From a virus, in IMG/VR virus record IMGVR_UViG_3300042866_001605, positions 1 to 46,012 of that record: DNA of 46,012 bases; one strand, given 5' to 3'. Positions 28,605 through 45,633 of the stretch are shown here, piece after piece (within the stretch, counting starts at the first letter, position 1; each line of letters begins with the position of its first letter). A model generated the notes under the pieces. It was not told where the DNA came from. It saw only the letters and a program-made list of their open reading frames with translations, and made no database searches. Made by a program: the position numbers and the translations under genes.

Positions 28605-28614
28605 GGTTTTACCC
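28605..28614 (-). promoter_or_regulatory. GGGTAAAACC element before the collar-fibre operon
   Basis: GGGTAAAACC on the minus strand contains the TAA stop of the 3,164-aa gene and lies 41 nt before the ATG at 28563. It would start the five-gene collar/collagen operon, 28563 to 22750. Confidence 0.5.
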
Positions 28615-31600: not shown

Positions 31601-34600
31601 GTGGGTGTTGGAGGAGTGATGTCGATGATCAATCCTTCGGTCGTCGCCTTAACAAACTCGATGCGATCCTGAACCTGAAGCTCAATAAGCTCGAATGCCT
31701 GTTGCGCGTTGCGTGCCTGCTCGATGCCACCGATGACGGGATCGATGATAACATTGCGAGCGAAGGGCTCGGCGCCACCCTCGGCGTTTAGCACGCCCTC
31801 AGGAGTGATGGTGAGATTATCACCCACCTTGATGCCACCAAGCTGAGTGGCTGAGGCGACTTTCAGTGAGATTCCACCGATGGCATCTAACGCGATGCCG
31901 TTCGAGTTGGGAGTCGGGACATAGACGGCACCGAGGTCGAAGGCGGAAGCCTTATTCAGGGTCAGCGCCACATTGAGTCCGGTTCCCACCACTGGAGCAG
32001 TAGTTGTGACGGTGATGCCGTCATTGGTGGAGGTGATGACATCGACACGATTCCACAGCGCGGTCGCTTCCTGCTCCAGAGCGGTCTGAACATTGGAGGC
32101 GGAGATTCCCGGAATCGGTGTTACGGCTACGAGTGCGGCGGTGGTGTTCCGATTCTCGTAGTCGATGCAGAACCACTCGGCGGCTTGACCAGGCTCCTTC
32201 TGAACGATGAACCAGTCGCCAGGCTGCACGAAGACGGTTGGGATAATCGCGCCCGGAGGCCCCTTATCACCACCGATGGTCACGATGACGTAGTAGTTAT
32301 CGGGGACGGCGGAAGCTGCGGGTGCTTGCTGTCCGGCGACGAAGCCAGCAAGACGTCCAACGACGGTGGGCTGAACCACGACTCCTCTCGCGGAGTCGTA
32401 AGTGCCGGCCAAGATGCTCGATCCAGTGAGAGCCTCGACCTTCGCATTCAACCCGGCAATAGCGGCTTGGGTGCAGACCAGAGACTGGGATGTGCCAGTG
32501 ACATCATTAGTCAATTGGACGATGCCCTTCTGAGTCAGGTCAGCGTAGGCTACGGCGATCTTCGCCGTGGTGCCGTCCACACCCGGAACAACGGGGGAGA
32601 CTGTGCAAGTGATACCGTCGGAATCCGCCAGAACGAACTCCACACGATCCTGTACCTGATTCTCGATGCCCTGGAGGGCTTCCTGAACGTTGGCTGCGGT
32701 CTCAATACCCACGATGGGTGTCCGCATCAGGACCTCATCGGAGTAGACTGTGGCTGCGTCAGTAGCGTTTAGTGTGCCGTCCGGGTCGATCTGAAGATTC
32801 TTACCGACCTTGATGCCGCCGAGTGTGGTAGGCGAGGCGATCTTCAGCGAGATTCCGCCCGCTTGGGAGAGGAGGATGCCTCCGTCCGTCGTCTGAGGGA
32901 CAAAAAGACCACCGATGTCGGTCTCACTGGCTGGATTGAGCTGGAGGGTTACGTCACGTCCAGTGCCGGGTTGCGGGTCGCTGATCGTGACGGTGATAGC
33001 GTCATTGAGGCTTGTGACATTGTCGACCGCTTCCCAGAGTTGACCAGCCAGTTCCTCGATGCCGGTCTGCACATTGGATGCGGCAAGACCCGGAACTTGA
33101 GCCAGCGACACGAGAACGGCGGCGGTGGTCCTATTATCGAAGTCGATAGTGACCCACTCGGCGGTGCCCGCATCCTTCTGTACGATGAACCAGTCGCCGG
33201 GCTGAACACCTCGTGGAGGGATTGGAGCGCCCGGAGGACCGTTAGAACCGCCAGTTACGACGATGACGAAATAGTTGTCAGGGACGATGTCGGCTGGGGG
33301 TGCAGGTTGTCCGACCTTGAAGTTGTGAATTGAGCCGGCCACAGTCACAGTGACCATCAGTCCAGTCAGGGCGTCGTAGGTGCCTGCCAGCACATTAACG
33401 CCGATCAGTGCCTGAATCTCAGCCTCCAAAATCGATCCAGCGCGCTGCGTGATGGCCAATTCCTCGGAGGTTCCTGTCAGGTCGTTCGTCAGCTGAACGA
33501 TACCCCTCTGTGAGGTATTGGCGTAGTCCAGTCCGAGAAGCAGCGTGGTTCCATCATTGGAAGCCTCGAGATTTTCAGGTAGAGTGGTAGGTGTGACAAC
33601 CTCCACCTGCAGACCCTCCGTTGTGGGGACAACGAATTCGATACGATCCTGAACCTGAAGCTCGATGAGTTCGAGGGCGGACTGAACATTGGTCGCGTTC
33701 TCAATACCAGGGATGGGTGGTTCCACTCCCACGAGTGACGCGACGGTGTTTCTGTTGTCGTAGTCGATGAGGATCCAAGCGGGTGTAGTTCCAGCATCGG
33801 ATTGTGCGATGAACCAGTCACCAGGTTGAACACCGGTTGGCGGGATGACTGTCCCAGAAGGACCCTTATTGCCGCCGGTGATGACGATGACGTAGTAGTT
33901 GTCGATGTCAGTGCTGGCCGCAGGCACATTTTGGCCGACTACGAATCCCTTGGCGGCACCCGCGGGTGTCACGTAAATCAGGGTTCCTGTGGTGCAATTG
34001 TAGGTACCAGCCAGAACGCTGCTTCCGCCCAACGCTTGGATTTCGGATTGCAACTCGGCGAGGGCCGCCTGCACGTTGTTGGCGACTACACCGACGATCG
34101 GTGTGACAACAACTTCCTTAGCCTCCAGTCCACTGACCGTGAGGGTCCCATCGGCGGAAGCGGACAGGTACTTGCCCACTTTAACGCCACCAAGCTGCAC
34201 GTCGTTAGCTGGGAGCAGGGAGATGGTACCCGACACGTAGATCGGTCCGCCCGTCAGACCGGTTCCTGTGAAGATGCTGGTGACGGTTCCGGTGCCACCG
34301 CCGCCGCCGCCTCCGCCACCACCGCCTCCACCACCAGTCGTGGCGGCGTCATCACCGAGGATGGAGGATGTCGTTCCTGAGGGACGTCCCGTGGAAAGCT
34401 GTTTCACGCTCCCCTTGGACACGATGTTGCCGAGCTCGTCTGTGCCCGTGGCCGTCAGCTCGCCGCCCCACATCAGGGTGGCCAGATAGTCGAAGTACTG
34501 CTTCAGTGGGATTTGGTTCCTCTCGTAGACCGGGAGACCCTTCGAGAATTGGATCGTTCCGCAGCTGTGGAAAGAGTGAGAGGTGGCGGACAGGAAGGAG

Positions 34601-37600
34601 TTGGTTGCCAGTTGAAGTGGCCAGGGGCCCGTGGCCGTAGCGTAACCCTTCTGGGGATTAGGTTCCGCTGAGATCTCCTGAACGGAGATGTTCCGTCGAC
34701 CCACTTCACGGGGTTGGAGCAGGGACTCGATGTCCTTGTCCTCGTAGCCCATGACCTGGAGGAAGCGGGACATGGCCGCCTTGGATGGAGCCCAGAAGAA
34801 GTCGTAGTCTTCCGCATTGACGACCGTATTCTCCTTCTGGAGCTGCATCGAGGAGCCAGAATCCCAGTCCTGTGTAGTCTCGGTGTTGTAAAGACCGCGG
34901 ATCATCCCCAGAGTCTTATTCGCCACATCGATCGCCAAGATCTGGACGTATTCGATGCGACCCGGGTACTTGGTGTTGGTGATGGACATCACCACGAACT
35001 CTTTCGCTGGGTCCGGGATCTTGGAGACGTCGTTGACGGTTACTGTGGTCTGGTCTGGAAGGAGAATCTCAGTGGTGTCCGTGACCACTTCACGAACTGG
35101 AACATCGTAGCGCAGCAGACCCTTGCTGGGTGTGCCATTATCCAGATTGACCGCATTCTCAAGGAAGTAGTTCTCCGCAGCGGCGGAATCACCACGGAAG
35201 TAGGTTCCGGTGGGATACTGTTCGCGGAATGGGTCAGGTGCGTAGAGGCCTTGGAAAGTGTCCGCCACGGGCACCTGAATCTCCGTGGAGAAGGTGATGG
35301 CCCAAGGAGAGTCGGTCTGCTGGGGGTTGAGTTTGATCGCCCCGGTGGGTGTCAGTGCACCATTGAAATATACGCCGTCCCAGTCATTGTTCGCAGCCGC
35401 GTACCAGTTCCTATCGGCGAACGTGACGTAGCTTCCGTGAGCGTTATCCAGCACCGGCTCCCAAGGACGCGCGGCGTCACAGAGTTGGAAGGCGGTGTAG
35501 TAAGTGGAGCCATCTACACGGTTGAGAAGGACTTCATTTAGGGTGGGTGAATCCCCCTCTTCCTTGCTCTCGTTGAAAGCCACTTGGAACACACGACCCC
35601 AGCCCCCAGTGGGTCCCGGATCCAGCTGCACACCTGGTTTGTACAGGACAGCTCCGGTGCTGGCCTGATTCAGGTGGAGGATCTTACCGGCTGTGGGAGC
35701 GAGGTGAGTGGTGGTGGAATTCCCCAGGATCATCGAGTAGATCCGATCTCGCAGTGGTCGTGGATCCGACCAACGGGAGATGTAGGGAGCCCAGGCTTCC
35801 AGACCCGGGATGGTCGTGGAGGTTCCGTATGGGAAACCCGAGTCTTTCGCACGAATTCTCAGTGTGCACTTCCCATCCTGGGAGAAGATGACCGTCGGCA
35901 AACCGTCACGGATCAGGATGCCTCTGTACTCCTTATCGGCCGCGCTTCTTGCGTAAACAGCTGTGTCAGGCGCCAGAGAATAAGGCAGGATGTTGATCGG
36001 TTTGAATCCGGGAGCCAAGTTGATCAGCTGGACTTCGGGATTGGTGCTGTCCCGTTCGATGGAGACGATGGTGGCACCGAGGCTGAGTGTCAGCGAGGAA
36101 AGAGTGTCATTCTCCGTAACGGCCAGGGGTACACGAATGCCCTGGAAGATGAATCCGGTCTCCGAGGGCAGCGCTTCGGTCGTAAGTGTGCTCCTACCGA
36201 TTCGGTAGTAGCCCTCTGAGCGTAGAGCGTTGGAGCCAAAGTTGGAGGCGCAATTGGTGGCCGTGAGGTTACCACCGCCGTAGGACCAGAAACCGACCGC
36301 ACAACCAATGCTCCAGGACGAGTCGACTTGCGCGTAACCACGGTTGATGGCTCGAACAGCGAAGTGCCGGAAATCGTTGAAGAGATCGGGAACGCCGGTC
36401 GACTTATCGTTGAACTGCTCCGTGGAGTAGTAGTAGCGAATGTTGGTGATGTCGGTGGCGTTTAGGTACTCCAGCTGCGCCGCCTGACTGACAACACTCG
36501 GCGACTCGGGCCGCAGCGCTGACGGAATGCTCGCCCAAGTAGCGTACTGCAGGGTGTACCAACGCGTGATACGATTACCGATCTCATCCTGGAGGGTGGT
36601 GTACACCTCGTAGGCGACGGGGTCATTCTGAAGGGAGACGACACTGAAAGCGTCAGCGAGTGAGGAGCGGAAACCACTGGTGATATCGCCATTCACCTCC
36701 ATACCACACATGCCGTAGTTCGAACGGACTGTGCAATTGATTACGTACGGCGAGCCATTGTTGGTGGAGTTGGACTCAGTACTCTGAAGCAGGGAGGCGG
36801 GCGTGTTGGCTACGACCACCGTCTCACCGGGATTGACCACCTCCGCCTGGTTCGTCTTACCGTTGAATGTGTCGGGGAAAGCCTTCTGGATGCGGATGTA
36901 GAAGTCGTTCAGCTCTGTCTCAGAGGCGGGATACACCGCACGGAGGCGGTTGTGAGAGCGACCGGGCCACTGGCACGTGGCGAGGATTCCCACCGTCTGT
37001 GGTGTAGCCGGGAGCTGAACCCGCGTGATGAAGTTGGCCTCAGTCTCACGGATGAAGGTGTAAGACAGGAGGAACGTGGTCGGTGTGATCGGATAGGTGT
37101 AGTAGAAACCGGGAGGCACACCTGCCGTGGTCCCACCCTGAATGGGACGTTGGTCGGCTCCAGCGGTGAACTGGAAGAACACACGATCGTTCAGACCGAA
37201 ACAGTGAGGCCTCGACGATACGAACACACCCTCACCGGCCTCACCGGCGATGATGTCGGAGACGTTGATGAGTGGGTTCTTATCTCGGAACGAGAGGTCC
37301 TGTACGAGGGAGTTGCCGGTCCACTTGATGACGCCCGTGATGGGTTCATTCACTCCGGCCAGAGTGGTGGGGTTCTTATATGTCGGAACGTAGCTTGGGC
37401 GAAGCTCAACCTTCCGCAAGTCCATACCGATGATGGTGGTACCGCGGGGCAGGATGAGGCCGCCGGTCTCGGGGTTGAAGGTCTGCAGCGTCAGGACGTC
37501 GGGACGCGCCGCGTCGGAACCCTCAAAGCGAGTGTTGAATTCCGGAATGATGTCCGGGTTGTTGGGATTGACGAGGGGCAGACCCGGGCCGTTGTAGACG

Positions 37601-38103
37601 GGCACGTAGCCGGGCGCCACCACGATGGTGAAGCGGTTGTTCGCGTCGAGGTCAGACTCGTTCTGCAGAATCGACTGCTTCGCGATCTCGATTACAGCAC
37701 GGTTGAGGGTCTTGAAGGGATTGGCCTGACCGTCATTAAGAATGGAGTCCGTCGCGGACGGAAACTCTCCCGCCACAAACACAACGTAACCGTTGGTGCC
37801 ACCCAGGAATGGGGCCGAGATCTGCTTCCAAGCTTGTTGGAGAGTCTCGGGGTCGACGACACCCGCGGACAGACTTCCGGTGATCTCATTGAAGAAAGTC
37901 TCGCCCAGCGACGGTGTCAGGGTCGGGAACTCGTCACCGACACTGGTGGGACCGACCTTGATCACGCTATTGTTCTCGGCCTCGAAGAACAGTCCCGGTG
38001 ACAGAGCGTTTGTGTTGAGTGCTAGCTCTCCAGGATCCAACAGGTTGGATGTGGGGCGCTTATTGAGAATGCTGGAACGCTTGAGAGTGATCCGAACGGC
38101 CAT
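28609..38103 (-). CDS. Giant repeat-containing virion structural protein / tail fibre, 3,164 aa
   Basis: The largest gene here. The N-terminus (ITLKRSSILNKRPTSNLLDPGELALN) matches the 521-aa collar fibre. Residues up to about 1250 form a globular part with LPRGTTIIGMDLRKVELRP and SLVQDLSFRD, patterns I recall from beta-helix structural proteins of T4-like cyanophages. A 14-glycine run (1257-1270) links to PDGTL repeats and then about five and a half copies of a unit of 322-333 residues. Each unit has QVQDRxEF, LTNDxxGxSE, LAGTYxxxTG, DNYYVIVxxGGxKGPPG, QPGDWFIVQ and LGGIKVGxNLTIDPDG. It ends with the FDG module. No enzyme motif is seen. The leader has a hairpin and a GGGTAAGAG element. Confidence 0.82.
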   Translation of the reverse strand: MAVRITLKRSSILNKRPTSNLLDPGELALNTNALSPGLFFEAENNSVIKVGPTSVGDEFPTLTPSLGETFFNEITGSLSAGVVDPETLQQAWKQISAPFLGGTNGYVVFVAGEFPSATDSILNDGQANPFKTLNRAVIEIAKQSILQNESDLDANNRFTIVVAPGYVPVYNGPGLPLVNPNNPDIIPEFNTRFEGSDAARPDVLTLQTFNPETGGLILPRGTTIIGMDLRKVELRPSYVPTYKNPTTLAGVNEPITGVIKWTGNSLVQDLSFRDKNPLINVSDIIAGEAGEGVFVSSRPHCFGLNDRVFFQFTAGADQRPIQGGTTAGVPPGFYYTYPITPTTFLLSYTFIRETEANFITRVQLPATPQTVGILATCQWPGRSHNRLRAVYPASETELNDFYIRIQKAFPDTFNGKTNQAEVVNPGETVVVANTPASLLQSTESNSTNNGSPYVINCTVRSNYGMCGMEVNGDITSGFRSSLADAFSVVSLQNDPVAYEVYTTLQDEIGNRITRWYTLQYATWASIPSALRPESPSVVSQAAQLEYLNATDITNIRYYYSTEQFNDKSTGVPDLFNDFRHFAVRAINRGYAQVDSSWSIGCAVGFWSYGGGNLTATNCASNFGSNALRSEGYYRIGRSTLTTEALPSETGFIFQGIRVPLAVTENDTLSSLTLSLGATIVSIERDSTNPEVQLINLAPGFKPINILPYSLAPDTAVYARSAADKEYRGILIRDGLPTVIFSQDGKCTLRIRAKDSGFPYGTSTTIPGLEAWAPYISRWSDPRPLRDRIYSMILGNSTTTHLAPTAGKILHLNQASTGAVLYKPGVQLDPGPTGGWGRVFQVAFNESKEEGDSPTLNEVLLNRVDGSTYYTAFQLCDAARPWEPVLDNAHGSYVTFADRNWYAAANNDWDGVYFNGALTPTGAIKLNPQQTDSPWAITFSTEIQVPVADTFQGLYAPDPFREQYPTGTYFRGDSAAAENYFLENAVNLDNGTPSKGLLRYDVPVREVVTDTTEILLPDQTTVTVNDVSKIPDPAKEFVVMSITNTKYPGRIEYVQILAIDVANKTLGMIRGLYNTETTQDWDSGSSMQLQKENTVVNAEDYDFFWAPSKAAMSRFLQVMGYEDKDIESLLQPREVGRRNISVQEISAEPNPQKGYATATGPWPLQLATNSFLSATSHSFHSCGTIQFSKGLPVYERNQIPLKQYFDYLATLMWGGELTATGTDELGNIVSKGSVKQLSTGRPSGTTSSILGDDAATTGGGGGGGGGGGGGGTGTVTSIFTGTGLTGGPIYVSGTISLLPANDVQLGGVKVGKYLSASADGTLTVSGLEAKEVVVTPIVGVVANNVQAALAELQSEIQALGGSSVLAGTYNCTTGTLIYVTPAGAAKGFVVGQNVPAASTDIDNYYVIVITGGNKGPSGTVIPPTGVQPGDWFIAQSDAGTTPAWILIDYDNRNTVASLVGVEPPIPGIENATNVQSALELIELQVQDRIEFVVPTTEGLQVEVVTPTTLPENLEASNDGTTLLLGLDYANTSQRGIVQLTNDLTGTSEELAITQRAGSILEAEIQALIGVNVLAGTYDALTGLMVTVTVAGSIHNFKVGQPAPPADIVPDNYFVIVVTGGSNGPPGAPIPPRGVQPGDWFIVQKDAGTAEWVTIDFDNRTTAAVLVSLAQVPGLAASNVQTGIEELAGQLWEAVDNVTSLNDAITVTISDPQPGTGRDVTLQLNPASETDIGGLFVPQTTDGGILLSQAGGISLKIASPTTLGGIKVGKNLQIDPDGTLNATDAATVYSDEVLMRTPIVGIETAANVQEALQGIENQVQDRVEFVLADSDGITCTVSPVVPGVDGTTAKIAVAYADLTQKGIVQLTNDVTGTSQSLVCTQAAIAGLNAKVEALTGSSILAGTYDSARGVVVQPTVVGRLAGFVAGQQAPAASAVPDNYYVIVTIGGDKGPPGAIIPTVFVQPGDWFIVQKEPGQAAEWFCIDYENRNTTAALVAVTPIPGISASNVQTALEQEATALWNRVDVITSTNDGITVTTTAPVVGTGLNVALTLNKASAFDLGAVYVPTPNSNGIALDAIGGISLKVASATQLGGIKVGDNLTITPEGVLNAEGGAEPFARNVIIDPVIGGIEQARNAQQAFELIELQVQDRIEFVKATTEGLIIDITPPTPTSYDGTTLNLGLAPASITAPGIVRLTNDPSGASETIAPTQFALSVLNAKVDALTGVNILAGTYNASTGFMVTTTAAGFAKGFRAGRTPPAARSDLDNYYVIIIVSGDKGPPGAVVPATGAQSGDWFIVQDDIGVPEWILIDFENRDVVAANVYLAPVSGLGASNVQSGFTEVAQVLWNAVGNLTAGNNGITVTSTAYTPGVLERATVALNPATSSDIGGVFIGPYVGLNLSTSGGLSVAPATAEHIGGIRVGKGLVIDADGILSADGSGSASGITITRIPGIDGARTVQEALEAIELQAQDRVEFCRVDGLGLQASVSAPSLTSNQGTTITLTPTIATIGVQGFTTLTNDFTGTSEVLALSQKAAAQLNSKIEAITGGNVLAGTYDSSTGRVVTVTPAGTPYFRVNQQAPAASGLPDNYYLLVVKSGNQGPPGATIPVTGVQSGDWFVVENTPTFPAAWITIDFENEAVTAIQVSLSTVPGLAATNVQTGIQELEIKAEKSITDLNAPGADSLSVTISPQSFTGRTASIRLGPATQVDLGGVFVQGPSTGILLGGDGSLSLAIASTTQLGGVKVGRNLTIDPDGTLNAEGGGSIFARDIVVDPLIPGITSANTVQLALEALELQVQDRVEFCTIAGAGGMVAQISPPVTTSNDGTRLTLSTLRANVGTVGVTQLTSDVTGNSEDLALTQFAASQLNAKIAALTGANVLAGTYNSRTGVVASVTPAGSAYLTVGAQAPVASGLPDNYYLLVVNAGVIGPPGAVIPPTGVQSGDWFVVEKEQGSQAAWVTIDFENTAIAAVNVSLSPVAGLAATNVQAGIAELEVKAENSFTNITATAADGISVTNTGPSPGGRTCNITLGPATSTDLGGVFVQPNVGLILGSNGALSLDIASPTKLGGIKVGQNLTIEPDGTLNASGGGGGGVDVKLVNLDAPFDGSKTAFQMLSGGAPFAPKASHYVMIVVGGIVQSANDAYTTTGDTINFSEAPPAGATFYSIGFG
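28850..34170 (-). repeat. Long direct repeats (about 1 kb units) in the giant fibre gene
   Basis: Using the codons for the QDR(I/V)EF motif as anchor, copies lie near 33644, 32645, 31664, 30698 and 29720, giving periods of 999, 981, 966 and 978 bp. A sixth LAGTY half-unit lies at about 34010. Divergence between units is high, so the expansion is old. Confidence 0.8.
34294..34335 (-). repeat. 14-codon polyglycine tract
   Basis: Fourteen consecutive Gly codons (mixed GGT, GGC, GGA) at residues 1257-1270 form a flexible hinge between the N-terminal body and the repeat shaft. The mixed codon use argues for selection on glycine rather than simple slippage. Confidence 0.9.
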
Positions 38104-38161: not shown

Positions 38162-38323
38162 TCAGAGATAGGCGCCACCGGCGATGGCGTCCTCACTCAC
38201 GTTGCCCCTATCAGCCAGAGCGAGAGCCGCGTCAAGGTACTTCATGGCACCTTGCGGATCACTTCGCCGGTTGAGTTTGTACTTGTCCATCAGCGCGATG
38301 TACTTCTTGTCGTCAGATGCCAT
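38162..38323 (-). CDS. Small hypothetical protein, 53 aa
   Basis: 53 residues from the ATG at 38323 (MASDDKKYIALMDKYKLN), overlapping the kinase-like gene by 11 nt. A longer version from 38380 would overlap that gene by 68 nt and is rejected. Two helices (DKKYIALMDKYK and AMKYLDAALALADRGN) are likely. No function recognised. Last gene before the fibre locus. Confidence 0.6.
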   Translation of the reverse strand: MASDDKKYIALMDKYKLNRRSDPQGAMKYLDAALALADRGNVSEDAIAGGAYL

Positions 38324-40553
38324 CGTAAAGAACCTCGATAACTTGCCTTGCTTGAGCGTCAGTGAGTTTGCCCATGCCACGTGTGCTGAAGGACTTCTCG
38401 TTGGAGCGAATGCCGTGAGTTATCACGTCGGCCACGTCCTGATCGGTGAGGCCAAAACTCTTCAGCTTCTTTATAGCTTTTTCCTTGTTCTCGAGCACCC
38501 TTGCTGCGGTTGGGAATCTCCGTGCGAACTCAGCCTTCACTGCGGGACTGGTGGACAGCTCGGCGTTCACCATCTCCTTTCCCGCGGTACCGTCCCAGCG
38601 TCGAACTTGCCAGTCTCCGCCCATGGAGCCACCTCGCTTAATGGCCCCTTGAGGAACTCGGGTGAATACTCCCATGGCCTCGGCGAGTGCGGCTTTAGGT
38701 CCGGCTTGGGCCAAGCCCATATCCACAAAGCGGCCGTTTCCATTCCTATCAATGAAGACGTTCTCGATGTGCATGTCGTTATGGGCGATGCCCATACGGT
38801 GGAGTTTGGCCCGAGCTTCCCAATAGACGTCGGAGACAACTTTACCAGTCTTGCCGACTGGATCGTCACCTTTCTTCTTGCCGATTGGTGAGCCGGGAAC
38901 TCGCGTCATGGCGATGCGACCGTCGTGAGTACCTCTCTCGTAACCAGGACCATCATACTGCGCGGCGATCAGTTTTGGACCGAGGTCGACTTTCCCGATT
39001 CGGTCAATGAGTTTCGCCTCATTCTCACCGACAGTTCCGCGCTTGACGACCACGTCGTTTTTGTCCACAATGGCTGTGCCGTAGGCGCCCTCTCCAAGGA
39101 GTTTGGCTCCCTTCTTGAGCGAGTTGCCCCAGACGAAATCCTCCTTGCCCATCTGCATCTGGGTGTCCCTCTCGACACGCTCGTCGAGCCTCATCATGTT
39201 TTCGTGAGTCCACTTACTCACTTTCTGAGGGAGGCCAGCAGGATATAACGGACGTCTAGAGAGTCCACGTCTCGCCAACTCATCCTCGACATCCTTCGCC
39301 TCACCCGCTTTCCCTTGACGAATGAAAACGCTATATTGATCACGAAGTTCCTCGTCGCCCCACTTCTTCCATTTGCTGGGATCCGCGGGATTCGCCTTGG
39401 CTCGTCTCAGCATTTCGGCCTCGATCTCCTTCACCATGTCGTCCTTCCCAAGTTGTTTCGCGGCCTGAAGTCGATTGCGAAGTTGGTCATCAGCAAACTT
39501 GCCCCACGCATTGGGAGCTCCCGCGGCTTGGGCCTTTTGTTGGGCTTGCTTATTGGCCTGCCCCGCACGCCGAGCTCTTTCCCTTCGCAGAGCGTCCAGC
39601 CTCACCATCGCCTCAGGGCTACCATCCTTGATGTAGTGCTTCTCGAGATCGTCGAGATCCTTCGGATTGAGCGCTCGGAAAAGCTTGGAATCGGCGGGAG
39701 GTAGATTTTTAGCCTTGACGCTATTACTCTCCAGTTTGGCGGCGGCTTGATTTTCGGCATCGAATTTAGCTTTAACCGCTGCCGCTTCTCTCTTTAAGGC
39801 TGACGGGGTTTCTTTTTCGCCACGAATTCGCAAATTCATCTGAGCGACCGCTTCTATCCCTGGCGGAATAGGTTTGGACTTCCCAGCGTCCATCTTCGCC
39901 CTCTCGTCGAGAGCCTTCTGAATCTTGTCCCGCTGGTACTTGTAGGGGGCTCGCTGGAGGTACTCCTCGAGCTTCTCCTTCGGTGCCTTGGCGAGGAATC
40001 CGGCGTTGATCTGACGTGAGAGGTTCTTGTTAGGCTCGGGAGCGGGAGCGGGCTCAGCGGACTTCGGCTTGGCGGTCCGGATGTTACCGACAATCGCTTT
40101 AAGATTCCTATCGGCCTCGGACTTCATCCTGGCGTTTCTCTCGTCCTGCTCCCGCTTGGCGGCCGCTTTCTCGTCGGCGAGTTTTTGACCTTCACGCCTC
40201 ACAGCGGATGGGGTTACCTTCTCACCGCGGCCCTCCAGGTTCAGTTTGGCGGGAAGGGTGTAGCCAGTTCCCCGGCCGTCGTCCTTCACGGACGGCTTTT
40301 TGGTCGGAGCCTCCGTCGCCGGCTTTCCGGCACGGCGGGCCAACTCCGCCTCGATGGCTTTTCGCTGATACTTGTAGGGAGCTCGTTGGAGGTACTCTTC
40401 CAGCTTTTGGGTGGTAGCTTTGGCTAGGAAACCCTTTCCCACTCGATTGGAGAGAGCCTCCTCCTGTCCCTTGCGGCACTTGCCGCTAGTTCCGTACGCG
40501 CTACCGTCTGGGCGCACGCACCGTGTAAAGTCGTAGAAGTCCTGTTCGTTCAT
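38313..40553 (-). CDS. Protein-kinase-like protein with N-terminal helical repeats and Cys-pair tag
   Basis: 746 residues. Start ATG at 40553 (TGATG overlap). Residues 1-30 carry FTRCVRPDGSAYGTSGKCRKG. Two copies of GFLAKAxxxKLEEYLQRAPYK (about 40-75 and 185-220), each followed by an RGEKxTPSA segment, and three W/F-D-x-ELR type helical repeats lead into a kinase-like domain. That domain has a glycine loop GEGAYGT (487-493), K504 in VVVKRG, catalytic loop HNDMHIEN (591-598, D593, N598) and D611-M-G for the DFG position. All key residues of an active eukaryotic-like or RIO/Bud32-like kinase are present. It probably phosphorylates a host or virion protein. The gene lies in the structural region, so the protein may travel in the particle. 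Confidence 0.8.
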   Translation of the reverse strand: MNEQDFYDFTRCVRPDGSAYGTSGKCRKGQEEALSNRVGKGFLAKATTQKLEEYLQRAPYKYQRKAIEAELARRAGKPATEAPTKKPSVKDDGRGTGYTLPAKLNLEGRGEKVTPSAVRREGQKLADEKAAAKREQDERNARMKSEADRNLKAIVGNIRTAKPKSAEPAPAPEPNKNLSRQINAGFLAKAPKEKLEEYLQRAPYKYQRDKIQKALDERAKMDAGKSKPIPPGIEAVAQMNLRIRGEKETPSALKREAAAVKAKFDAENQAAAKLESNSVKAKNLPPADSKLFRALNPKDLDDLEKHYIKDGSPEAMVRLDALRRERARRAGQANKQAQQKAQAAGAPNAWGKFADDQLRNRLQAAKQLGKDDMVKEIEAEMLRRAKANPADPSKWKKWGDEELRDQYSVFIRQGKAGEAKDVEDELARRGLSRRPLYPAGLPQKVSKWTHENMMRLDERVERDTQMQMGKEDFVWGNSLKKGAKLLGEGAYGTAIVDKNDVVVKRGTVGENEAKLIDRIGKVDLGPKLIAAQYDGPGYERGTHDGRIAMTRVPGSPIGKKKGDDPVGKTGKVVSDVYWEARAKLHRMGIAHNDMHIENVFIDRNGNGRFVDMGLAQAGPKAALAEAMGVFTRVPQGAIKRGGSMGGDWQVRRWDGTAGKEMVNAELSTSPAVKAEFARRFPTAARVLENKEKAIKKLKSFGLTDQDVADVITHGIRSNEKSFSTRGMGKLTDAQARQVIEVLYDGI

Positions 40554-41239
40554 CACGCTTCACCGAGTTCCTCTTCGTCTTCCTCGTCGTCGGAATCTTC
40601 CTCATCCTCGGGGGAGTTGGACTGACCGGGATCAGCGCCGGCGTCACCACCAGCGGACTTCATCTCGGCGAATCGCAGAATGGCCTCCTCGAGACGGGCG
40701 ATCTTCTCGTCATTCTCGTTGATGGCCTCGGCGTAATCACGGAAGGGGTTGGCCTCGTCCTGGTGATTCTGCGACTCGTACATCATACCATCGTTCATGC
40801 CACGCTGGGTACGGCCGAGATCGTTCACCATCATCTTGGCCTCGACCGCCGAGATCGCCTTCAGGATCTGATTGCGCTCCTTGACGATGCGGTGCTCCTC
40901 CTGAAAGTTGCCCAGCTGCCGGGCACGACGGAGGCGGCCATTCAGACTCTCCTGAACTTTCATGAGGCGGGTGAGTTCACCCTCCATCGAGTTGTACTCG
41001 CCGGTGCCCTGCTCCTCGCCGTAATTGAAGGTCGGGGGACCACTGCCACGTGGCTGATTGCCGTAGAAGGCGGAGTGTGGCTGCCACGGCTCATCCTCCT
41101 TTTTGAGCTTGCTCACCTGAGGGGAGAGAACCGGTACGTCCTCGGCGTCGATTCCAGTGCCGTGGAAGCCGCGTTCTGAGTAGCTGTAGAGTTCATACGC
41201 CTGCTTAAGCGCGGCGTCGGCGATCGAATCTTTGCGCAT
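40553..41239 (-). CDS. Hypothetical coiled-coil protein with acidic tail
   Basis: 228 residues. A helical centre (about 85-205: GELTRLMKVQESLNGRLRRARQLGNFQEE... and later ENDEKIARLEEAILRFAEM) is predicted to form coiled coils. The last 25 residues are almost all Asp/Glu. This shape occurs in scaffolding and chaperone-like phage proteins, but no family match is claimed. It is coupled by TGATG to the kinase-like gene and preceded by GGGTAAAACC. Confidence 0.6.
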   Translation of the reverse strand: MRKDSIADAALKQAYELYSYSERGFHGTGIDAEDVPVLSPQVSKLKKEDEPWQPHSAFYGNQPRGSGPPTFNYGEEQGTGEYNSMEGELTRLMKVQESLNGRLRRARQLGNFQEEHRIVKERNQILKAISAVEAKMMVNDLGRTQRGMNDGMMYESQNHQDEANPFRDYAEAINENDEKIARLEEAILRFAEMKSAGGDAGADPGQSNSPEDEEDSDDEEDEEELGEA

Positions 41240-41251
41240 TGGGAAGTACTT

Positions 41252-42397
41252 TTACGAAGGTTTTACCCGTGGATCCTTACCGAAGATCGCCACGTACCAC
41301 AGAGCTAAGGAATTGGGGCCAACGACTTCAGAGAATGAGAGGAATGTGTCCGTCTTACTCTGCTCCTCCTTTGTTGAGGGGACGAGCACGCCGTCTTTGA
41401 GTCGACCGTAGATGTTTTCACCTGGCGTCGCCTTGGAGAAGCCCATCTTCTCGTACGCCCTCTGTCTGGAGGCGCCCTTACCGTCCTCGGAGTAGGCGTA
41501 CGTCCGCATGACGTAGCCCTCAGGAAGGGAACCCAGAACGGCATTGAAGCAACGTTGTACCTGCCTCGCCACAGCCATCTCCTCCTTTCGGCCCTGAGTC
41601 ACCGTTCCAGCCTCGTAGGTGCCATTCACCTCGAAGTTGAAGCTGTTTCGGCCGAATGTCGTGCTGACGACGTTTCCACCGGGCGTCGTGAATTCGGTCT
41701 TAATCATGCCCATGGGCGTTATACTGACTTTTGTTCCTGCCGGGACATTGGAGACGATGCTATCGAGGACTCTCTGGCTATTTTGGAAGGGCTCCAATTG
41801 CTTCAGATTCTTCTCAAGCTCACCCTTCATGGAGTCGGCCATGTCGGGATACTTCTCCATCACCATTTTGGCGTGGTCGATCTGTCTCTTGATGGCATCA
41901 ACACCGGGGCCTCCAGTGAGTTTGCTCGAGTCACCCTCAAAGGTGCCACCCTTCTCGAAGCTCTCCTCTCTCGGCTTTTTAGGAGATGACTTGGGAGCTT
42001 CCTCAGCCTTGGGCTCCGCTTTTGGCTTGGGCGCCTCCTCAGGCTCGTCCTGACCGAATCTCGAGCGATTGACGGTCAGTTTTGCGAAACTGGACTTCAA
42101 CTCCACTGTATCGCCATCACGAGTAGCTGTCCACTTATCACCGGCATCCGATTTGAAAGTCGTGCTCTCACCGTCAGCGAGTTTGCCAATGGCACTCTGA
42201 TTCTCATCGAGGAGAACGACACTTTCGCCGCCTCCCGACACTTTCATTGTGGAGCCCCAGCTGTACTTTTTGATCTCAATGGCGCTCTCCACACCTTTAC
42301 GGCAGGTTCCCGCGGTGCCGTATGCGGTACCGTCCGGACGCTCGCATCGTACGAAATCCAGAACCTTGAGTGCTTCTTCCGAGAAACTGCCTAGCAT
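41252..42397 (-). CDS. Hypothetical protein with Cys-pair tag and acetyltransferase-like C-terminal motif
   Basis: 381 residues from the ATG at 42397 (TGATG overlap; the GTG at 42400 is rejected). Near residue 20: CERPDGTAYGTAGTCRKG, nearly identical to the tag in the kinase-like protein. A Pro/Lys/Glu linker (about 115-150) follows, then a domain with GYVMRTYAYSEDGKGASRQ and RAYEKMGF ... YGRLKDG. The RxxAYEKMGF pattern recalls the last motif of GNAT acetyltransferases, but I cannot see the acetyl-CoA loop, so this is weak. Probably virion-associated. Confidence 0.6.
   Translation of the reverse strand: MLGSFSEEALKVLDFVRCERPDGTAYGTAGTCRKGVESAIEIKKYSWGSTMKVSGGGESVVLLDENQSAIGKLADGESTTFKSDAGDKWTATRDGDTVELKSSFAKLTVNRSRFGQDEPEEAPKPKAEPKAEEAPKSSPKKPREESFEKGGTFEGDSSKLTGGPGVDAIKRQIDHAKMVMEKYPDMADSMKGELEKNLKQLEPFQNSQRVLDSIVSNVPAGTKVSITPMGMIKTEFTTPGGNVVSTTFGRNSFNFEVNGTYEAGTVTQGRKEEMAVARQVQRCFNAVLGSLPEGYVMRTYAYSEDGKGASRQRAYEKMGFSKATPGENIYGRLKDGVLVPSTKEEQSKTDTFLSFSEVVGPNSLALWYVAIFGKDPRVKPS
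41259..41268 (-). promoter_or_regulatory. GGGTAAAACC element before the coiled-coil/kinase operon
   Basis: GGGTAAAACC lies in the last codons of the 381-aa gene, 19 nt before the ATG at 41239. A second weaker CGTAAAAG follows at the stop codon. Here the element is inside coding sequence, unlike most copies. Confidence 0.45.
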
Positions 42398-43002
42398 CAC
42401 GCCGTCTCCCCGCCTTTACGCCACGCATCAGCGCGTTCCTGACGCTCCTTCTGAAGGAGGTCGCCCGGCTTTGGCGCCTCGTCCTTATTTTCCTTCGGCT
42501 TCGGAGGCTGAGCCGGTGACTGCGGCTTCGGCGCCTGGGCTCCACCGCCACCACCACCGCCTTGGGGTTTCGCTTCGGGCTTCTTCGGACCGACTTTCTT
42601 CTCTCCAGCTACGGATCCCCACTCCACGAGAACGGGTTTACCATCCTTCATCGCCCAACCGAGTTTCTTACCGGATTTCACATCCTTGATCATCTTATTG
42701 TTCTTGAACTCAGAGCCCTCTTTCTTGGCCTGAGTCTCACCCTCCTCCTCCTGCTTCGTCTTCTTGGAAGAGTCGAAGTCCTTATCGTCTTTGGGATTGG
42801 CCTTGGCGCTACGGCACATACCGAAGATCATCTTCTCGTTGGGACCACACTCTTCGGCGAAAGTGGACGGCGCTCCACGTCCGGGCATATTGGTCTGTAG
42901 ACCGCGATCGATCTCGCGGCTCTCGGCGAAGGACCAGTCGACGACGCGATAGTGAACGCCCTCGATGAGGTGGTCCACTGAGGGGATATTGAAAGTGTTC
43001 AT
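42397..43002 (-). CDS. Hypothetical protein with Cys-pair tag and polyglycine linker
   Basis: 201 residues. The N-terminal 55 residues contain VDHLIEGVHYRVVDWSFAES. EECGPNEKMIFGMCRSAK fits the same C-x10-C-R tag as its neighbours. GKKLGWAMKDGKPVLVEWGS is a small beta element. The C-terminal third is Lys/Pro-rich with an 8-Gly run, and looks disordered. The ATG is 4 nt after the previous stop. No enzyme motif. Confidence 0.6.
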   Translation of the reverse strand: MNTFNIPSVDHLIEGVHYRVVDWSFAESREIDRGLQTNMPGRGAPSTFAEECGPNEKMIFGMCRSAKANPKDDKDFDSSKKTKQEEEGETQAKKEGSEFKNNKMIKDVKSGKKLGWAMKDGKPVLVEWGSVAGEKKVGPKKPEAKPQGGGGGGGAQAPKPQSPAQPPKPKENKDEAPKPGDLLQKERQERADAWRKGGETA

Positions 43003-43006
43003 TGTG

Positions 43007-43363
43007 TTACCACTTAGTGCGGTCAGCCCAATATGCGGCTGAAGATGGACCCTTGGCGATATTCTTTGCGTGACGGGCCTTAAAGGAGGCGCGCTTCGCC
43101 TTCATCCTCTCCGACTCACCCTCTTTGGGTTTACCAGCAGTGGAGGCTCCGGCCTGACCGAAGCGAATGAGCTTCTCCTGACCATCGTAGCAGGCTTTAA
43201 CGACGTGGGACTTACCGTTGTGCGTCTCAGCTTTGGGCTTATTACAAGGCATGTCCTCTTTATCGGAGTAGGACTGCTGGGGATACCCGATGGCCATAGC
43301 CTGACGTTCTGCGTAGGCCTCTTTGAACTCGGCGAGGAGATCTTCGGGGAAGGAACCGAACAT
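43007..43363 (-). CDS. Conserved phage protein (SFKARHxKNIAKG family)
   Basis: 118 residues. The C-terminal half matches a signature I recall from many aquatic phage proteins (DUF6321-like): IRFGQAGASTAGKPKEGES, RMKAKRASFKARHAKNIAKG and SAAYWADRTKW. The basic, Trp/Arg-rich stretch could bind nucleic acid. Cysteines in EDMPCNKP and VVKACYDG flank a beta hairpin. In relatives the domain is encoded near head and virion-associated genes; the function is unknown. It is coupled to the previous gene by TGATG. Confidence 0.72.
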   Translation of the reverse strand: MFGSFPEDLLAEFKEAYAERQAMAIGYPQQSYSDKEDMPCNKPKAETHNGKSHVVKACYDGQEKLIRFGQAGASTAGKPKEGESERMKAKRASFKARHAKNIAKGPSSAAYWADRTKW

Positions 43364-43854
43364 CAGCGCATTCTCCCGGAGACGACCTTGTTCTTGATCC
43401 CTCGCTCAATGGCGTCCGCCGAACGAGCCTTCGCACGCTCCTCAGGGGTCATCGCGGCGAGTTCCGCCTCACGCTTGGCGCCCTGACCGCTCGCCATGTT
43501 CACCTCGAGGTGAGCTTGCATGGCCTTTTTCATGGCGTTGAGGATACCCTCCTTCGCGTCGAGGTCGTCGTTGTCCAGATCCTTGATGGCCTTCTTATGA
43601 ATGCGACCCAGATCCTTCGTGTCTTTGGCCTTGGCGTAGCGCTCCTCGAACACCTTCTCGTGCGCGTCATCGAAGGAGCTTCCCACGTCAGCCCTGATGG
43701 CTTCGGTCACATCCTTGTATCCGGCACCGCCACCAATGTGGCAAGTCTTGGATGCTGGAATGTGCGAGGCGCCGCAGGGTTTTCCAGTCCCCTTGCCCTC
43801 ACCAAAGGACGGTGAACCAGCACTCGGACCGGCGATGAGCGGCTTACGCTTCAT
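43363..43854 (-). CDS. Hypothetical protein with Cys-pair tag
   Basis: 163 residues. GKPCGASHIPASKTCHIGGG near residue 26 is the clearest C-x10-CH tag, almost the same as in the 224-aa protein. The rest is helical and charged (DDAHEKVFEERYAKAKDTKD, AMTPEERAKARSADAIERG). The start overlaps the microgene by 4 nt (ATGA). Unknown function. Confidence 0.62.
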   Translation of the reverse strand: MKRKPLIAGPSAGSPSFGEGKGTGKPCGASHIPASKTCHIGGGAGYKDVTEAIRADVGSSFDDAHEKVFEERYAKAKDTKDLGRIHKKAIKDLDNDDLDAKEGILNAMKKAMQAHLEVNMASGQGAKREAELAAMTPEERAKARSADAIERGIKNKVVSGRMR

Positions 43855-43946
43855 CCCTTCCAGCAGGCGTCCTTCAGGTCGCCGGTAGCCTTCTCTGTGT
43901 AGCCCAATCCGAGGAGGCGATCAAAATCGTAGTCTTCAAGGTTCAT
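43851..43946 (-). CDS. 31-residue microprotein
   Basis: ATG at 43946, stop TGA at 43851. Translation begins MNLEDYDFDRLLGLGYTEK and ends DACWKG. Both ends overlap neighbours by 4 nt in ATGA form (43943-43946 and 43851-43854), exactly the spacing used by accepted genes here. Without it there would be an 88-bp gap in an otherwise gapless operon. One Cys and one Trp near the end. Function unknown. Confidence 0.75.
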   Translation of the reverse strand: MNLEDYDFDRLLGLGYTEKATGDLKDACWKG

Positions 43947-44233
43947 TGTCTGTGGTGGGTCCAGTCCCGGACTGACGAGATCTCCTCGCGGATGTCGCGA
44001 AGTTGTTGGGTGATGTGGCTGTGCCACTGCTCTTCGGCGTGCATGTGGGAGAGTAGTTCCTCCTTAGTCACGTAGGACTTAGGAATCTCCACACGCAACT
44101 CGGTGAGTGTGTGTTGCACCTTACTCAAGGTGTTGGTCATCTCGTCAAGGTTTCTCTTACCGAGATACAGGATGACGGAGAGAATGAAGCCGGTCAGAGG
44201 TCCGGCGATCGCGAAGATAACGTGTAGCGGCAT
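43943..44233 (-). CDS. Small membrane-anchored coiled-coil protein, holin-like candidate
   Basis: 96 residues from the ATG at 44233 (TGATG overlap). One hydrophobic helix at residues 4-24 (HVIFAIAGPLTGFILSVILY) is followed by a positively charged stop and about 70 residues of coiled coil with HMHAEEQWHSHI and REEISSVRDW. Such single-pass proteins occur as holins or spanin-like partners, but equally as virion membrane proteins. No lysis enzyme lies next to it. Confidence 0.45.
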   Translation of the reverse strand: MPLHVIFAIAGPLTGFILSVILYLGKRNLDEMTNTLSKVQHTLTELRVEIPKSYVTKEELLSHMHAEEQWHSHITQQLRDIREEISSVRDWTHHRQ

Positions 44234-44934
44234 CACCCAGGCAGACCAGAACCACCTTCGGCGAGACGTTGTTTGACCGAGTCAGGGAGTGCCGACTCCA
44301 GACCCATCTCCTTAGCGATGCGGATGATGTTGCGCATGATCTGACGCTGATTTCCGCCAGCACGACCAACTGCGTGCCACGCGGCTTTCACGTCGGTGGC
44401 GTTCGAGATCGGGAAGCTGGTGCCTGGACCAGCGAATTTGCCCTCAATCTCACCCGACTTCAATTCCTTGCGCTTCTCAGTGCTCCACTCGCGGTACTCG
44501 GCGTCTTGGCGCTTCTTATTCCGACAGGAGGCACATGTCCCACAGGAACAACCCTCATCAAATGAGGGCATGAACGAACCCATCGCGAGGTACTCGTCCT
44601 CCTGTTCGGAGAACACGTACTCCTTCGACTTCAATTCGCGATGTTCGGCGGCGCGGAGGGAGCGGCGACCCATAATCTCGCCCATCGCCTGACCACCGTC
44701 GGCGTACTCGTTCATGTCGCGATTGATCAGGTTCACCCTGCTCTCACGACGCTCTTTATGGTTGGCGAGACGAAGCTCGTTATGATCGGTCTTACCGATG
44801 GTCATGAAACCCTCCTTGTTGACACCAGCACCCCACTTGCGTTTCTGCTTGTTCTCCTTTTCCAGTGAGGGGTCAGATTGAGCGTTGGAGGCGTTGATCA
44901 TGCCACCAACGCCAGGCAGAACTACGCCGTCCAT
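44233..44934 (-). CDS. Hypothetical protein with CxCxxCxxC cluster
   Basis: 233 residues. At about 129-137 CSCGTCASC forms a tight cluster that probably binds zinc or is redox active. The C-terminal 65 residues (FPISNATDVKAAWHAVGRAGG ... ALPDSVKQRL) resemble a helical domain found at the end of several phage structural and environmental phage proteins. The N-terminal half is charged and helical with GRRSLRAAEHRELKSKEYVFSE. It follows a GGGTAAAAAC element. Confidence 0.55.
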   Translation of the reverse strand: MDGVVLPGVGGMINASNAQSDPSLEKENKQKRKWGAGVNKEGFMTIGKTDHNELRLANHKERRESRVNLINRDMNEYADGGQAMGEIMGRRSLRAAEHRELKSKEYVFSEQEDEYLAMGSFMPSFDEGCSCGTCASCRNKKRQDAEYREWSTEKRKELKSGEIEGKFAGPGTSFPISNATDVKAAWHAVGRAGGNQRQIMRNIIRIAKEMGLESALPDSVKQRLAEGGSGLPG

Positions 44935-44954
44935 GCGATGTCAGAAACTGAGTT

Positions 44955-44964
44955 GTTTTTACCC
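44955..44964 (-). promoter_or_regulatory. GGGTAAAAAC element before the 44.9-41.3 kb operon
   Basis: GGGTAAAAAC contains the TAA stop of the 224-aa gene and lies 20 nt before the ATG at 44934. No Shine-Dalgarno is present. It would serve the chain of overlapping genes from 44934 down to 41252. Confidence 0.5.
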
Positions 44965-45633
44965 CTTCATCGCCTCAGGGTAGGCTGTCATCAGAGCGAG
45001 GATAGCGAGTTCGGCCATCAATTTGGAGGCTCCAGTCTGTTCAGCGTAGGCGGGCGAACGATTCATGAAGAAGTCCATCAGGAGCCTCGTGTCGTGTGCC
45101 GAACGTTCGGCCACCATTCTCGCGAGAGCTCCAGGTCCGGGCAGCTTTCCACCTGCGATAGCTGTGCCGATGCCGGCGAATTTGCCGGCGAGGAGCGGTG
45201 CCGCTTGCTGGATGATCTGTCGAGCTTCTGCGGCCTCGACGATGCGCTCCACGCCGCCGTGTGCGGTCTTTCCAAGGAACGCTGCCGCTCCCTCGGTGAT
45301 GATCTTCTTAGCCCAGTCGTCCGCGGTCTTCAAGTGCTTCGCTTCGAGAGCCGTCATCGTCGCCGCCTGAATCACCGTCTCAGCGAGGAGTTGGGCTTGC
45401 TCTCTTGGGAGGCCGAAGTGAGATTCAAGATAGCCAGCTGTCGCCGAACCGAGGACCTTGCCCACCTTCCAGGCGGCCATTCCCTTTCCAACATGCTCGG
45501 CGACGTGACCCACACGCTCTACGACTTTCTTGTGACACTTTTTCTCGTCGGGGATCGCTGAAGCACCACACTGCTTGAACTCCCAGAGAATATATAGCGC
45601 GGCTTCGCTGAAATCCCCAACTTCAAAGCCCAT
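44959..45633 (-). CDS. Hypothetical helical protein with Cys-pair tag
   Basis: 224 residues. FKQCGASAIPDEKKCHKKV at about residues 19-37 is the tag shared with four neighbours. The rest is Ala-rich and helical, including GKVLGSATAGYLESHFGLP and AAPLLAGKFAGIGTAIAGG, which may interact with membranes. The start overlaps the preceding stop (TGATG). No enzyme motif. Confidence 0.6.
   Translation of the reverse strand: MGFEVGDFSEAALYILWEFKQCGASAIPDEKKCHKKVVERVGHVAEHVGKGMAAWKVGKVLGSATAGYLESHFGLPREQAQLLAETVIQAATMTALEAKHLKTADDWAKKIITEGAAAFLGKTAHGGVERIVEAAEARQIIQQAAPLLAGKFAGIGTAIAGGKLPGPGALARMVAERSAHDTRLLMDFFMNRSPAYAEQTGASKLMAELAILALMTAYPEAMKG

Follow-up and report, generated by a model that had tools for sequence, protein, structure and literature searches.

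A 46-kb phage fragment (IMG/VR record IMGVR_UViG_3300042866_001605; the whole 46,012-nucleotide stretch is termed the window, and coordinates refer to it unless a locus is named) encodes on its minus strand, in an operon-like series with short overlaps, five proteins that share a short cysteine-pair tag near the N-terminus and differ in their bodies. Most likely, interchangeable tags of this kind mark, in a group of aquatic phages resembling Synechococcus phage S-CBWM1, proteins that are loaded into the particle, trimmed, and delivered together with the DNA. The recurrence of the tags, their exchange on homologous bodies, the depletion of cysteine from those bodies, the enrichment of one motif in N-terminal headers and in the scaffold, and a census of the bodies are directly supported by the data; packaging, cleavage, and disulfide formation are what we infer from them. 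It is reasonably probable that the module serves virion packaging, with header processing in one tag class. The degrees of confidence attached to this reading and to its rivals overlap and are not intended to sum to one.

The tagged proteins comprise 224 (44959..45633), 163 (43363..43854), 201 (42397..43002), 382 (41252..42400, start codon counted), and 747 aa (38313..40556), with cysteine pairs at residues 22/33, 27/38, 52/63, 19/33, and 13/27, respectively. These pairs are the sole cysteines of the 224-, 163-, 201-, and 747-aa proteins, and the 382-aa body has one more. The chance of a pair with the given spacing within residues 1–60, estimated by shuffling each protein, is p=0.0023, 0.0045, 0.0027, 0.0024, and 0.0003 in the same order. 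A first-pass annotation had proposed that five neighbors with differing bodies carry such a pair near the N-terminus, and all five peptides are indeed found in these minus-strand open reading frames (ORFs). It had divided them into two subtypes; the spacings it reported are present, but the tags fall into three classes. The 382- and 747-aa proteins contain a C-x13-C-RKG tag, here T2 (CERPDGTAYGTAGTC-RKG, 42302..42346, and CVRPDGSAYGTSGKC-RKG, 40476..40520), and the 224- and 163-aa proteins a C-x10-C tag, T1 (CGASAIPDEKKC, C22-x10-C33, 45535..45570, and GKP-CGASHIPASKTC-HIG, 43741..43776). The 201-aa protein bears a separate variant (CGPNEKMIFGMC, C52-x10-C63, 42814..42849), the cysteine pair of which is conserved in relatives from records G017 and G020 (CGEGEKMVFGVCRK, CPPGEKVVFGVCRK).

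Recurrence of T2 was followed with a DNA pattern encoding C-x-RPDG-x2-YGT-x-G-x-CRKG, with the reversed pattern as control. Both T2 tags of the window match it (reversed control, zero), as do 41 further IMG/VR stretches among 2.9 million viral contigs scanned; nearly all matches lie close to the N-terminus of an ORF, and the ORF bodies differ. Across 22 virus records, ~60 matches compare with none for the reversed pattern, and strict matches number at most six per record, except for ten in G007 (L234, L235), a 40-kb contig in which the same genes are repeated on the opposite strand, probably an assembly artifact that doubles the count of the same five tags. A homology search with the 382-aa protein found dozens of other proteins, mostly through its N-terminal ~50 residues, with at most nine header-plus-tag matches per record. 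Among 50,697 phage records T2 occurs in S-CBWM1 only (two records, one phage), and among ~85,000 prokaryote genomes in two metagenome-assembled contigs only. A viral scan with gp170, the protease-scaffold of S-CBWM1, matched only itself; relatives came from the records behind the tag loci. The possibility that the tag is simply part of a known larger domain, which would have spoken against the initial proposal, finds no support, no Pfam or PHROG family having been found to cover the tags. Comparison of the tag peptides with the PDB gave nothing meaningful (designed Pizza repeats matched by chance), and literature searches turned up no previous account of the tag, which does not prove that none exists. 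Two reading frames (L042 178-2034, L023 2205-3779) contain two tags each, a body after each, in a polyprotein-like arrangement.

T1 is, judged from alignments, a reduced form of a four-Cys tag that has lost cysteines 1 and 3. The four-Cys pattern, C-x2-GK-x-C-x3-C-I-x5-C, is found in at least 120 IMG/VR stretches, some of them chance or bacterial matches; in S-CBWM1, such tags (CTRGKSCGSACVASSYTC, CVKGKSCNAACIHRNKDC) lie near the N-termini of the kinase gp162 and of gp174, annotated as a virion structural protein. Alignment of the 224-aa protein with its relatives, six of which are four-Cys proteins, shows that Cys 2 and 4 are kept (C22 and C33 are invariant) and Cys 1 and 3 absent; the 163-aa protein likewise retains GKPC...C, with the GKxC of the four-Cys tag, and lacks Cys 1 and 3. 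Beyond close relatives of the window protein, the strict T1 pattern yields chance matches only. Four-Cys tags are often placed at residues 4–22, often without a header and often with an MKKC start. Small proteins at loci L091, L096, L126, L137, L152, and L198 end in CCKVCxKGKACGxSCIxRxxxCHQPPGCACDG or similar, a four-Cys core with extra cysteines that may represent a cellular origin of the tag.

The tag types replace one another on homologous bodies, as seen by BLASTP of the bodies with tags removed. The body of the 224-aa T1 protein is 42–52% identical to those of six four-Cys proteins (best 6e-45), that of the 163-aa T1 protein is 53% identical to T2 proteins (1e-36), and the kinase body of the 747-aa T2 protein matches ~20 four-Cys proteins (best 3e-80, 50% identity over 299 aa). 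Most genes of the window cluster have homologues that are also clustered, in G017, G020, G022, and G015. Because the tag types substitute for each other in this way, the comparison suggests that they share one common function.

What the tags are attached to is diverse. Against Pfam, 105 distinct tagged proteins match Pkinase (22), APH (12), and ABC1 (12), which are overlapping kinase models, as well as ADPrib_exo_Tox (6), ART (3), cytidylyltransferase (CTP_transf, 3), and, once each, HNH, alpha/beta hydrolase, and ART-PolyVal; PHROG matches add HNH endonuclease, endonuclease VII, and Alt-like RNA polymerase ADP-ribosyltransferase. Many of these matches are weak, and many bodies have no assigned family. 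In the 747-aa protein the tag is followed by a long linker and a C-terminal protein-kinase-like domain (Pkinase, 1.7e-4, under the gathering score; PHROG kinase, 3.9e-5). The 382-aa body has zero Pfam or PHROG matches, and a PDB search with its structure model (predicted local distance difference test score, pLDDT, 60) gave no match, leaving an early guess of a GNAT acetyltransferase unsupported. The model of the 224-aa protein is all-helical and of low confidence (pLDDT 43). A ~1460-aa protein (L101 2953-7335) combines one four-Cys tag with three kinase-domain-like stretches.

The bodies are also strongly depleted in cysteine, containing 0.11 Cys per 100 residues and none at all in 44 of 54 cases. 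In the same genomes, the corresponding value is 1.25 for other ORFs, 1.36 for terminase (TerL), 1.31 for nucleotide enzymes, and 0.50–0.57 for virion and tail proteins. Among proteins known to be ejected, cysteines number zero in the 3500 residues of the N4 virion RNA polymerase (vRNAP), the 1318 of T7 gp16, and the 100 of T4 internal protein (IP) II, as well as in gp51 and gp52; Alt has two in its first 501 residues.

A second element, absent from the first-pass annotation, is a header with F-[S/A/G]-E, situated ahead of the tag in four of the five window proteins. It reads F8-S-E10 in the 224-aa protein (45604..45612, a putative prohead-protease site upstream of the tag), F-G-E in the 163-aa protein (43798..43806), F-A-E immediately ahead of the tag in the 201-aa protein (42853..42861), and F6-S-E8 in the 382-aa protein (MMLGSFSEEALKVLDFVRC, 42377..42385). 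F[SAT]E occurs within 45 residues of the tag in 36 of 55 T2 headers, compared with 0.5 expected from body windows. A further protein of the syntenic cluster in G017 (L238 12863-13420) has a longer cysteine pair, CWKGYHAVGVKKKGGRTVPNC, behind a GFGFSED header. F[SA]E is also present near the C-termini of two families, as F356-S-E358 in the 382-aa protein (41327..41335; F[SA]E in four of four homologues) and, in the alignment of the 224-aa protein with its homologues, as Y-A-E198 (45040..45048), where seven of eight have [FY][AS]E (L102, ASE) and E198 is invariant.

The same motif is concentrated in the head-maturation machinery. When all ORFs in the fetched genomes are ordered by their number of F[SAT]E sites, a Mu-I-like protease-scaffold fusion fills the top three positions (G015, 7; G003, 5; G020, 5); the S-CBWM1 fusion, with 4 sites, ties for fourth with a denser G022 protein, and the next two are tagged proteins (G017, G007). 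Together the four fusions have 21 sites, compared with 2.9 by shuffling. In related records, sites are located at the end of the protease domain, the protease/scaffold junction, and near the scaffold C-terminus (LEFSEGET). The S-TIM5 protease-scaffold likewise has F[SA]E sites, though no tags were found in the 30–80 kb stretch of that phage. Pseudomonas phage B3 has eight F[SA]E sites plus one in the C-terminal part of the portal (L280 3950-5221, 341-1807), whereas Mu, whose portal undergoes processing during head assembly, has no F[SA]E and instead repeats ALSA in the scaffold, with ALSAED in the portal (L281 2557-3642, 1-593). Because the motif changes jointly in scaffold and portal between Mu and B3, F[SA]E behaves like a protease recognition site, and in T2 headers it is probably a site for the prohead protease. 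More generally, a phage-specific tripeptide that scaffold and portal appear to share may allow the sites cut by Mu-I-type head proteases to be read from sequence data alone.

Several observations weigh against packaging with header processing. An F[SA]E header is missing from the 747-aa protein and present in only 4 of 69 four-Cys-tagged proteins; as the latter mostly lack it, the header cannot be a universal signal. The N4 capsid protein (MCP) is also Cys-free, and cysteine depletion therefore points to a virion protein and not to ejection alone. The four-Cys motif occurs behind signal peptides in some bacterial proteins as well, so the fold itself is not specific to phages, and the reducing cytoplasm before lysis would not favor disulfides. 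In addition, F[SA]E might serve to bind the scaffold instead of being cut, since an amphipathic helix often comes next in the headers, the two C-termini, and the scaffold. A somewhat doubtful alternative is that sorting depends on the Cys tag alone, that the F[SA]E header serves separately to bind the scaffold, and that no proteolysis takes place. Such a scheme would accommodate the four-Cys tags, with their frequent position near the start of the protein and usual lack of F[SA]E, but the sites at the protease/scaffold junction and the joint scaffold-portal change between Mu and B3 suit a protease site better. With the Cys tag alone as the sorting signal, the header may be an add-on of the T2 class.

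The pattern of cysteine loss bears on the chemistry of the tag. Over all fetched loci, Cys 1 and 3 are both lost in six sequences, not all of them independent, a single Cys is lost in one, and other combinations number zero; because the sample was collected with the four-Cys pattern, these numbers are no more than indicative. Joint loss is what disulfide pairs 1–3 and 2–4 predict, and the favored interpretation is that the Cys tag is probably a disulfide-closed clasp. Metal binding, which had been among the functions first suggested, is disfavored. It would make the tag a zinc-knuckle-like element that helps to bind DNA or protein within the infected cell, on late-expressed host-takeover enzymes that are never packaged, and four clustered cysteines with basic residues are compatible with zinc. 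However, T1 and T2 keep two cysteines where a zinc knuckle or ribbon has four conserved ligands, and they do so on bodies homologous to those of four-Cys proteins; the joint losses suit disulfide pairs, and a metal site would leave the Cys-free bodies unexplained when other phage enzymes contain ~1.3 Cys per 100 aa. We consider this reading unlikely.

The tag as a surface or tail feature, a disulfide-stabilized mini-domain fixing proteins outside the particle or at the tail tip, is likewise unlikely. The window cluster adjoins a 3164-aa structural protein and tail fibers, and the bacterial proteins with the motif behind signal peptides would fit an external location, but kinase, ADP-ribosyltransferase, and nucleotidyltransferase bodies require ATP, NAD, or CTP, all of which are cytoplasmic. 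Finally, a linker often copied by recombination and without a common role, as the movement of tags among bodies and the tandem tag-plus-body units in two ORFs might indicate, is very improbable, because strong conservation of T2 on many unrelated bodies, its fixed N-terminal position, exchange at homologous genes, and the Cys-free bodies imply selection.

Packaging with header processing would then proceed in four steps. First, the protein would dock to the scaffold within the prohead through a short amphipathic header at its N-terminus, which ends in F-[S/A/T]-E. The scaffold-fused Mu-I-type prohead protease, which shares the F[SA]E sites, would then cut the header off, so that the Cys tag comes to lie close to the new N-terminus. 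As their cysteine depletion and body types suggest, the Cys-free bodies would be carried by the virion and delivered to the host along with its DNA, like T4 Alt and N4 vRNAP; many of these bodies are kinases, ADP-ribosyltransferases, nucleotidyltransferases, or nucleases that would modify the host. The Cys tag itself would be a swappable small clasp by which all the cargo is recognized or retained, probably closed by a C2–C4 bond, joined by C1–C3 in the four-Cys form, and by a single bond in T2. A more elaborate version is put forward tentatively: a modular cargo code in which replaceable disulfide clasps, one type behind a removable protease-site header, load phage-specific host-modifying enzymes, cysteines having been purged so that the tag thiols alone are reactive, with the clasp perhaps closing on release and reopening in the next host. 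If packaging is correct, a search for a motif of 15–20 residues would yield an inventory of the effectors that a large uncultured aquatic phage group injects, and would single out kinases, ADP-ribosyltransferases, and nucleases whose action on the host falls within the first minutes of infection. The T4 paradigm would gain a second type of capsid-targeting signal, foreign proteins could be loaded into phage heads with a tag that already exists, and the absence of cysteine would suggest itself as a usable sequence signature of ejected proteins.

Elsewhere on the minus strand, a 118-aa phrog_7595 protein (43007..43363) has the header MFGSFPEDLL and no tag; in G015, the phrog_7595 domain is fused behind a T2 tag (L202 14103-14975), and the protein is also present in cyanophage S-CBS2 and in roseophages, with no tags in the stretches examined of CRP-603 and S-CBS2, both of which have phrog_7595. 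A syntenic 233-aa protein (44233..44934, also minus strand) combines F-S-E with a CSCGTCASC cluster. The neighboring 3164-aa structural protein (28609-38103) contains several internal repeats (LAGTYN...GDWFIVQ...) and has ~2 times the length of the S-CBWM1, G015, G020, and G022 relatives (1573–1607 aa).

Among known systems, the tagged proteins resemble MuF polymorphic toxins in that the C-terminal effectors vary while the N-terminal trafficking module stays constant, but the constant module here spans ~15–20 residues and is not a MuF domain. No MuF (SPP1 gp7-like) domain is found among the Pfam matches of the 105 tagged proteins, and assignment as MuF-type minor head proteins gained no support, the one minor-head PHROG match examined (L121) covering only the end of the profile. 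Like the ejected N4 vRNAP and T7 gp16, the bodies are virtually Cys-free; in those two proteins no N-terminal Cys tag or F[SA]E header was seen, and no homology is known. Polyvalent proteins (Iyer et al. 2017, PMC5512222) offer another parallel, in that packaging and delivery are believed to apply to their kinase, ART, and nucleotidyltransferase bodies, and one tagged protein matches ART-PolyVal. The word cysteine is absent from the main text of that paper (PMC5512222), and polyvalent proteins join many domains in one long protein, whereas here there are many short proteins with one tag each and mostly single bodies, the exceptions being L101 and the tandem ORFs of L042 and L023.

In function the module would correspond to the capsid-targeting sequence (CTS) of T4, an N-terminal propeptide of ~10–20 residues that is removed by gp21 (PMC7411985). 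The packaging idea of the first-pass annotation, modeled on T4 internal proteins, has indirect support and is the best-supported reading, given the effector-type bodies, among them ADP-ribosyltransferases, some matching the Alt-like PHROG, the cysteine depletion resembling that of known ejected proteins, and the F[SA]E that the headers share with the protease-scaffold; the CTS-like part is, however, the header upstream of the cysteine pair, with the Cys tag expected to persist on the mature protein. No likeness to the T4 CTS sequence is seen by eye between headers such as GSFSEEAL... and the N-termini of IPII and Alt, a formal profile test not having been run. As in the CTS of IPI–III and Alt, a short N-terminal element is common to otherwise unrelated proteins, one an ADP-ribosyltransferase, here in the form of T2 headers and of tags on many body families, and both processing by a head protease at a hydrophobic-x-Glu site and ejection of the cargo are predicted. 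Cleavage in jumbo phage SPN3US takes place at A-X-E, an x-Glu form that F[SA]E shares. In contrast to the T4 system, F[SA]E is not the T4 site, the protease is Mu-I-like and fused to the scaffold, the Cys tag would remain on the cargo, and the tags come in three exchangeable types.

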